Shown piece after piece: positions 39,719 through 41,343 of a stretch of 64,000 nt of DNA (the first letter of the stretch is position 1; each line of letters starts with the position of its first letter). A program made the translations under genes and the position numbers. The stretch is from NCBI RefSeq assembly GCF_018141005.1, contig NZ_CP046582.1, forward strand, positions 1,860,001 through 1,924,000, given 5' to 3'. The notes below the pieces were generated by a model that worked only from the letters and a program-made list of their open reading frames with translations, ran no database searches and was not told where the DNA came from. This DNA comes from Erwinia sp. E602. Its GTDB lineage: Bacteria > Pseudomonadota > Gammaproteobacteria > Enterobacterales > Enterobacteriaceae.

Positions 39719-39975
39719 CGTCTGCCCCATATGGCTCTTATTGCCCACCTGCCCACCAGGCGCATAGCGGATGCGGTGGTCGCCAGCCGTAAGTGTACGC
39801 TCTGTGATCCCGGACAGAAAATAATACCGACATCAGACAGTTATCTGCTGTTAACACCACACAATTTAACATTCTGATGTAAACTGTTAACAAGCGGGGC
39901 GAAAAAATCCCGCTGGCAGTTCTCCCAGGCATGGATCTCAGCCTGGCATTATCGTCTGGTCATCAAGGGGGTTAT

Positions 39976-40422
39976 ATGACACAACGTTTAGGCGATCTGT
40001 TCCAGGAAATCAAAGACCGGATTGCGAAAGTTCGCGGCCTGACCAACGACGAGGATGTTGAGCCGGATGACCGGATCAAAATTCACAACCGCGCCTTCCT
40101 GCTGTTCTCCCTCGACTGTCTGCTGGACGAATACCGCACTAAAAATGCGTCTCTTTACTCTGCGCTGAGAGGAAGGGATGCGCTGCACCATCTGTTACTG
40201 AAAAAGTATGGCTGGACGCTGTACGAGATCCGTTCGCTGACGCTGGCCGACAGCCTGTTTGCCATTCAGGATGAGCTGGTGTTCGACAAGCTGCCGCAGG
40301 CGGTACAGAGCTATCTGCGGGACAATCAGTGGGATAAATTCAACAGCACCTTTGACGATCTGACCGATCAGGAGTGGGACCCGATGCTGGGCAACGGCCA
40401 TTTCGATCTGACCCAGCGTTAA
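39976..40422 (+). CDS. MltR-family protein (MtlR/YggD-like)
   Basis: Protein of 148 residues in the MltR family, all-helical, with characteristic NRAFLLFSLDCLLDEYRTK, LHHLLLKKYGWTLYEIRSLTLADSLFAIQDEL (landmark GWTLYEIRSLT) and a terminal WDPMLGNG. ATG 39976 is used because an upstream in-frame ATG lacks a ribosome-binding site and family similarity. E. coli MtlR represses the mannitol operon and its paralogue YggD has been reported to have fumarase activity, so the role here is uncertain. No mannitol PTS gene is nearby. Confidence 0.82.
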   Translation: MTQRLGDLFQEIKDRIAKVRGLTNDEDVEPDDRIKIHNRAFLLFSLDCLLDEYRTKNASLYSALRGRDALHHLLLKKYGWTLYEIRSLTLADSLFAIQDELVFDKLPQAVQSYLRDNQWDKFNSTFDDLTDQEWDPMLGNGHFDLTQR

Positions 40423-40910: not shown

Positions 40911-40943
40911 AAAAAAAAGCCCGCTAAACGCTCAGTTGCGGGC
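40911..40943 (-). terminator. Rho-independent terminator (sRNA / DinI-family gene)
   Basis: Stem GCCCGC / GCGGGC with a 13-nt loop and a T8 tail on the minus strand. It lies about 115 bp beyond the stop of the DinI-family gene and immediately after the ArcZ-like seed. Confidence 0.85.
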
Positions 40944-41035
40944 CAACACCAGGGAAATCGATTAAAAATAATAATAAGACTAATCTCAGGTAATGCAACT
41001 CGAAAGCGCCGCAACCTTGTGTAAATTTATGCAAA
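40911..41035 (-). ncRNA. Probable Hfq-dependent small RNA with an ArcZ-type seed
   Basis: On the minus strand GATTTCCCTGGTGTTGGC (40959-40942) matches, from memory, the conserved target-pairing stretch of ArcZ (RyhA); SdsR shares ATTTCCCTGG. It is followed directly by a GC hairpin and a T8 tail (40943-40911), the 3' architecture of Hfq-bound sRNAs. An AU-rich single-stranded stretch (TTATTATTATTTTTAATC) precedes the seed. The 5' end is not determined: it might be a primary transcript starting near 41030, or be processed from the 3' UTR of the DinI-family mRNA, whose stop is at 41060. The canonical arcZ locus beside arcB is elsewhere, so this would be a second copy or a distinct sRNA. Confidence 0.6.
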
Positions 41036-41059
41036 TATCATCAGCCCGTACAGCTTTGG

Positions 41060-41327: not shown

Positions 41328-41343
41328 CTGTATAAAAATACAG
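41328..41343 (-). promoter_or_regulatory. LexA (SOS) box
   Basis: CTGTATAAAAATACAG matches the CTG-N10-CAG LexA consensus with an AT-rich core. It ends 23 bp before the DinI-family start codon, so LexA binding would block its promoter. Confidence 0.9.

Follow-up and report, generated by a model that had tools for sequence, protein, structure and literature searches.

In the window (the whole 64-kb stretch of Erwinia DNA that was analysed), an unannotated small RNA (sRNA) is probably encoded at the 3′ end of a dinI-type gene that is preceded by a LexA-type box. It is moderately probable that this sRNA is of the Hfq type, 50-55 nt long, and either cut out of the mRNA, transcribed internally, or both; it would act in trans on the targets of the ArcZ pairing sequence (seed). 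Comparative evidence places the sequence beyond chance, and the features on which this reading is built are listed in table 1.

A direct sequence search finds the seed-bearing 18-mer at 40959-40942 of the minus strand, and GATTTCCCTGGTGTTGGC is the sole match in the 64-kb window at up to three mismatches (chance expectation 0.05). The identical 18-mer occurs in an authentic arcZ gene, that of Escherichia coli SMS-3-5. Thus, its identification with the ArcZ pairing region in the first-pass annotation stands, and the objection raised there, that the 18-mer might be foreign to genuine arcZ, falls away. The other described elements are also present, namely the AU-rich stretch upstream, the GC hairpin (GCCCGC...GCGGGC) 3′ of the seed, and the T8 at 40918-40911. 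The 5′ arm of the hairpin overlaps the end of the seed, and UUUCCCUGGUGUUGGC runs straight into the terminator, which presumably also ends the dinI-like transcript. The folding of the hairpin does not stand out from shuffled sequences (z = -0.54; 56 of 200 shuffles equal or better). A simple consensus scanner reported neither promoter nor terminator at the locus, and the terminator may have been missed because the scanner takes loops of 3-8 nt only. The terminator stem is kept in all 16 distinct rows of the alignment, and these rows show no covariation in it. The module formed by seed and terminator agrees with the extended ArcZ cleavage context CCCUGGUGUUGGCGCA only as far as GGC.

Table 1. 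Features of the dinI-linked module and its surroundings (positions within the window)
Feature	Position	Strand	Basis
DinI-family gene, 81 aa	41060..41305	-	Pfam PF06183, 71.6 bits, above cut-off; PHROG DinI
LexA-type SOS box CTGTATTTTTATACAG	41328..41343 (read 41343-41328)	-	Sequence
Candidate internal promoter, TTGCAT (40998-40993) N16 TATTAT (40976-40971)	40971..40998	-	TTGCA-type block conserved in 18-locus alignment; inferred
Proposed mature sRNA of roughly 50-56 nt, with a short 5′ segment ahead of the seed, then the terminator hairpin and U8	40911..40966	-	Alignment A1 and covariance model R1; both ends inferred
18-mer GATTTCCCTGGTGTTGGC, ArcZ-identical pairing (seed) sequence	40942..40959	-	Location, arcZ identity, conservation
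Possible RNase E cleavage site GA↓UUU immediately 5′ of CCCUGGUGUUGG/CCCUGGUGUUGGC (consensus RN↓WUU)	40955..40959	-	Sequence; consensus as described for ArcZ in PMC11331407
Rho-independent-type terminator GCCCGC...GCGGGC + T8	40911..40943	-	Sequence, folding, alignment
ECs1072-family phage-associated protein, downstream; prophage trace near module	39931..40422	+	Family and PHROG scans

The seed is that of ArcZ but the RNA itself is not, because the ArcZ family model (RF00081, gathering threshold 66) gives the window locus only 13.4 bits (E = 5.8, in a loose-threshold search) versus 56.3 bits (E = 2.1e-11) for the genome's own arcZ, a control which is also below 66 yet far higher. This own arcZ adjoins arcB (G000:C2:497044-497146) and has 16 of the 18 nt in common (TTTCCCTGGTGTTGGC). 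The neighbors of the window locus are dinI-like and ldcA genes, not arcB. From the first reading of the DNA, the part that holds is an ArcZ pairing region adjoining an SOS-type gene, likely within a functional sRNA. A second arcZ copy or another RNA of the ArcZ family is rejected, as the seed alone is shared and neither the ArcZ hairpins nor the ArcZ terminator are found. No family reaches its threshold in the Rfam scan of the whole window, and SdsR, to which a relation had also been suggested, is absent among the 10 Rfam matches at E ≤ 10. Apart from the identical pairing sequence, the module resembles ArcZ in its RNase E-type context and in a size near that of processed ArcZ (56 nt, PMC11331407). 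It differs in locus and terminator, in the missing small second hairpin, and in the low score on the family model. According to the same study, RNase E, with Hfq, cuts ArcZ at RN↓WUU right before CCCUGGUGUUGGCGCA (PMC11331407).

The neighboring gene agrees with the DinI-family, SOS-type gene proposed from the sequence, both by its family match and by its LexA-type box (table 1). On the NCBIfam DinI equivalog model (NF007893) it receives 39 bits, below the cut-off of 111, and so it does not count as a true dinI. Upstream of the dinI-like gene, a CTGT-N8-[AC]CAG box is located in all 18 module-bearing loci. The five neighboring ORFs scanned are the DinI-like one, LdcA, EmtA, the phage-associated protein, and one without family; none of them is of the luxR/luxI type that accompanies YenS. 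A small ORF (MATIYIPSLMGLL..., L111:2104-2364 and similar), which matches no Pfam or PHROG family, is conserved either after the module or, in five module-less loci, directly after dinI.

The 14-mer seed TTCCCTGGTGTTGG was searched in 37 Erwinia genomes, and all matching sites were fetched and grouped. It occurs 92 times: 36 sites are in arcZ, 17 follow dinI, 25 are antisense to a transporter leader, four plus three belong to other terminator-bearing loci, and three lie antisense before an ABC-transporter gene. Four sites are outside these groups, and one of them (L127) falls in a prophage. The DinI protein was also used as query instead of the seed, in order to lessen selection on the seed. 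It found a match in 36 of the 37 genomes, 18 with and 18 without the module, with one genome lacking such a gene. The seed is exact in 17 of the 18 module loci and has one substitution in the other (G310, GTTAG variant). One genome counted as module-less (G309) shows a bare ATTCCCTGG in the UTR, perhaps by chance. A covariance model (R1) built from 17 of the 18 module loci scores at least 63.9 bits in all 18, and the next best match in the genus is 39.1 bits.

Mean pairwise identity among the 18 module loci (152 pairs, one near-identical pair dropped) is 99% in the seed 14-mer, 34% in the first 40 nt of the UTR, and 59% at third codon positions, figures that are conditional on module-bearing loci having been recognised by a pattern containing the seed. 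Because of this pattern, only the contrast between seed and flanks and the all-or-none presence of the module are informative. Poor conservation of the 18-mer between conserved flanks, named at the outset as a contrary outcome, is the opposite of what these loci show, the seed being far more conserved than its surroundings. Among the 37 loci examined, the gap between dinI and the small ORF could be measured only where this downstream ORF is common. It spans 269-337 nt with the module (eight loci) versus 103-144 nt without it (five loci), a contrast best read as the insertion or deletion of a discrete segment. Mapped onto an arcB tree covering 36 genomes, the module requires six or more gains or losses (shuffled mean 12.3), and its distribution is clustered but patchy.

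Apart from the two sRNA loci, the window genome has one exact 14-nt complement of the seed, which lies in a symporter-like leader. The predicted duplex has -27.3 kcal/mol, and none of 300 shuffles reaches this value. Good pairing is also predicted for two weaker sites, located at gene starts and picked from matches with two mismatches (two and none of 300 shuffles as low, respectively). The same complement is invariant upstream of a metabolite/H+ symporter-like gene across Erwinia (L121, L071, and 23 loci like them); among the 26 loci listed, the 11 in which a start motif was found have it 130-222 nt ahead of the start. This transporter-leader group (25 of the 92 sites) was assembled by eye, and the two of its proteins that were scanned resemble metabolite/H+ symporters below the curated cut-off. 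Judging from its sequence, the symporter leader is likely a conserved ArcZ target. The third seed sites per genome were accordingly rejected as further sRNAs, these 25 being the opposite strand of likely targets. The starts of flhD, ftsZ, dinI, ldcA, and emtA show no unusual pairing (105, 89, 219, 88, and 204 of 300 shuffles as low, respectively). For the flhD leader z is -0.3, and for ftsZ, where the 24-nt 5′ part was set against positions -200 to +60, z is -0.5 with a duplex of -17.0 kcal/mol. An ArcZ-like pairing with flhD and a DinR-like pairing with ftsZ were thus discarded, the duplexes being no better than shuffled ones. As a separate observation, in L074, L092, and L146 the seed complement immediately precedes the start codon of a gene for an ABC-transporter substrate-binding protein; the one in L074 is similar, below cut-off, to 2-aminoethylphosphonate binding proteins.

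Beyond Erwinia, the seed followed by a T-run and with a next base other than that of ArcZ (pattern GGC[ACT], in which the base after the seed rules out ArcZ) is found in 35 of 295 family genomes and 21 of 154 genera, the window genome included. The reversed-seed counterpart of this pattern is absent across the 295 genomes. The best R1 matches outside the genus are in G230 (50.2 bits) and G130 (39.6 bits). Two loci of genus g130 (L251 and L252) carry an intergenic ATTTCCCTGGTGTTTGGCCCGTC and a terminator, with 50.2 and 39.6 bits on R1, and no dinI relative lies beside them in the fetched stretch.

A luxR-type gene is located 58-266 nt downstream on the same strand in 10 of the 16 fetched loci with a non-ArcZ seed and terminator; these calls are our own reading with the longest-ORF start, the protein family having been scanned for L213 and the Erwinia locus L090 only. 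The arrangement of ArcZ seed and terminator upstream of luxR-type genes is seen in many genera (L205-L208, L211-L214, L216, L217, L090, and L151). YenS-type RNAs are known at such luxR loci (PMC3493969). From their position, the luxR-linked loci possibly represent YenS-type RNAs with an ArcZ seed, and the 10 of 16 upstream locations are those expected from YenS and the similar RNA of Pantoea stewartii (PMC3493969). The window locus, unlike YenS, is without a luxR-type neighbor.

Seven wider loci were fetched and the proteins of two were scanned. L363 includes an EPS depolymerase (phrog_4250), a lysozyme-type protein, and a CI-like repressor, and L357 includes UmuDC-like and baseplate proteins. 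Elsewhere, a depolymerase is found in L107 and holins in L098 and L064. The protein that follows in several of these loci is presumably Icd.

In viral contigs, the 16-mer TTTCCCTGGTGTTGGC is present in 49, and the 14-mer with a T-run within range in 33, compared with six for the reversed and none for a permuted seed. A hairpin precedes the T-run in 38 of 60 pooled viral contigs by our own energy rule, and they belong to several unrelated families, near-duplicates included. The neighbors of such seed modules include a Q antiterminator (viral L370, L393, and L424, and Erwinia L127), holins (L414), integrases (L365, L378, and L419, the site of the last failing the hairpin rule), and DinI (L378). 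Judging from the contig names, a single genome can have several viral contigs with a seed module (2848317263, 2836755666). The dinI module itself occurs in five of 75 viral loci having a DinI relative. A 451-nt query matches 14 plasmid and 21 annotated-phage records, essentially in the dinI coding part, and no plasmid or annotated-phage record over 80% of its length. The 81-nt module matches 50 annotated-phage records at E ≤ 10, none of which covers 80% of it, and three prophage seed modules have no match in annotated phages. The CyaR seed, used as a comparator, gave 105 viral stretches when combined with a T-run, many of them at one locus position among the 80 listed; this pile-up may reflect a host gene that adjoins an attachment site. 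Since the comparator is so frequent, the viral-contig count alone is no proof of phage origin, and the neighboring genes weigh more.

The SOS-linked sRNA has to be weighed against other readings of the same locus. The sRNA could be made only from its own internal promoter (TTGCAT-N16-TATTAT), dinI being incidental and SOS induction absent. Indeed, a TTGCA-type block and a weaker one resembling a -10 element are kept in front of the seed at similar spacing, whereas the remaining UTR diverges. Nevertheless, all 17 GGCCCG-type sites among the 92 are behind a dinI-like gene, several species match the promoter poorly, and the scanner is silent in the window, so this reading seems rather unlikely. 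It is highly improbable that the module is an unprocessed mRNA 3′ end, conserved merely as the dinI terminator, with no action in trans and a coincidental match to ArcZ. Terminators are conserved for their own sake, but they need no conserved unpaired UUUCCCUGGUGUU, which is exact in 17 of the 18 loci; moreover, the reversed pattern has no match in the 37 genomes of the genus and none with a T-run among the matches listed from the 295 genomes of the family.

A degenerate arcZ duplicate that moved behind dinI would account for the 16-18 nt identical to arcZ, but the identity ends at the seed, the second hairpin and terminator of ArcZ are missing, and with 13.4 bits on RF00081 this origin is scarcely credible. 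The RNA could also be a phage-derived competitor, mainly occupying ArcZ targets or Hfq and thereby blunting ArcZ during prophage induction. Such a role would fit the prophage-type genes in the vicinity and the occurrence of ArcZ-seed modules in viral contigs. On the other hand, the RNA has the seed and not the target sequence, and so is not an AgvB-like target mimic, and a rival with the same seed should reproduce the regulation instead of blocking it; a competitor is thus very unlikely.

For the favored SOS-linked sRNA, DNA damage would lead to a dinI-like mRNA extending to the terminator, and RNase E with Hfq would cut it at RN↓WUU just before CCCUGGUGUUGG, as in ArcZ. The conserved candidate promoter inside the transcript may supply basal RNA. 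The freed RNA of 50-55 nt would pair with mRNAs having the ArcZ target sequence CCAACACCAGGGAA, for instance the leader of the metabolite/H+ symporter, which would subject some of the ArcZ regulon to SOS control. Being near prophage-derived genes, the module may have spread or been kept with them.

A 3′-end RNA borrowing the seed of an unrelated core sRNA is not without parallel, as DapZ of Salmonella is a 3′UTR sRNA having the seed of GcvB; the module differs in its seed and in its proposed trigger, SOS. Closer in position is DinR of Klebsiella pneumoniae, an Hfq-dependent sRNA cut from the dinI mRNA by RNase E, which shows that a LexA-controlled dinI mRNA can release such an RNA (PMC10907235). 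In that study, dinI was the sole Hfq-enriched SOS-box gene associated with an sRNA, and whether other species release an sRNA from dinI was left for later (PMC10907235). The module resembles DinR in its position at a dinI-type 3′ end next to the terminator and in the LexA-type box of its 18 loci, and by analogy release by RNase E and Hfq is plausible. DinR itself is 157 nt long, starts inside the coding sequence, and pairs with ftsZ through a Klebsiella-specific region (PMC10907235). The module, unlike DinR, follows a gene below the DinI equivalog cut-off, carries the ArcZ seed, and has no unusual pairing with ftsZ.

A prior description of the ArcZ-seed module was not found in the open-access literature. 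Phage, SOS, and YenS are not mentioned in the main text of the ArcZ review, dinI and SOS do not appear in the available text of the Erwinia amylovora Hfq-sRNA paper, and ArcZ is absent from the main text of a review on phage sRNAs (PMC12197685). The phage-encoded StxS, AgvB, and PreS covered by the latter are comparable as phage-borne RNAs acting on host networks, and StxS is said there to activate rpoS in a way that is typical of host sRNAs (PMC12197685).

The module is therefore a different candidate answer, from another genus, to the question of sRNA release from dinI raised in Klebsiella. With the seed of the global sRNA ArcZ (RpoS, motility) at a dinI 3′ end, a testable wire from DNA damage to the ArcZ network is proposed, a network to which DNA damage or phages may have access. 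In a wider and more tentative picture, the ArcZ seed might be a portable cassette: Enterobacterales prophages and prophage-derived loci (with Q/holin, integrase, or dinI) and quorum-sensing loci would repeatedly carry short seed-plus-terminator RNAs, through which phage induction, SOS, and cell density plug into the ArcZ regulon, the dinI-linked module being the SOS version. If this is true, the ArcZ seed, recurring in prophage and quorum-sensing loci that are unrelated, would be a shared currency exploited by mobile elements.
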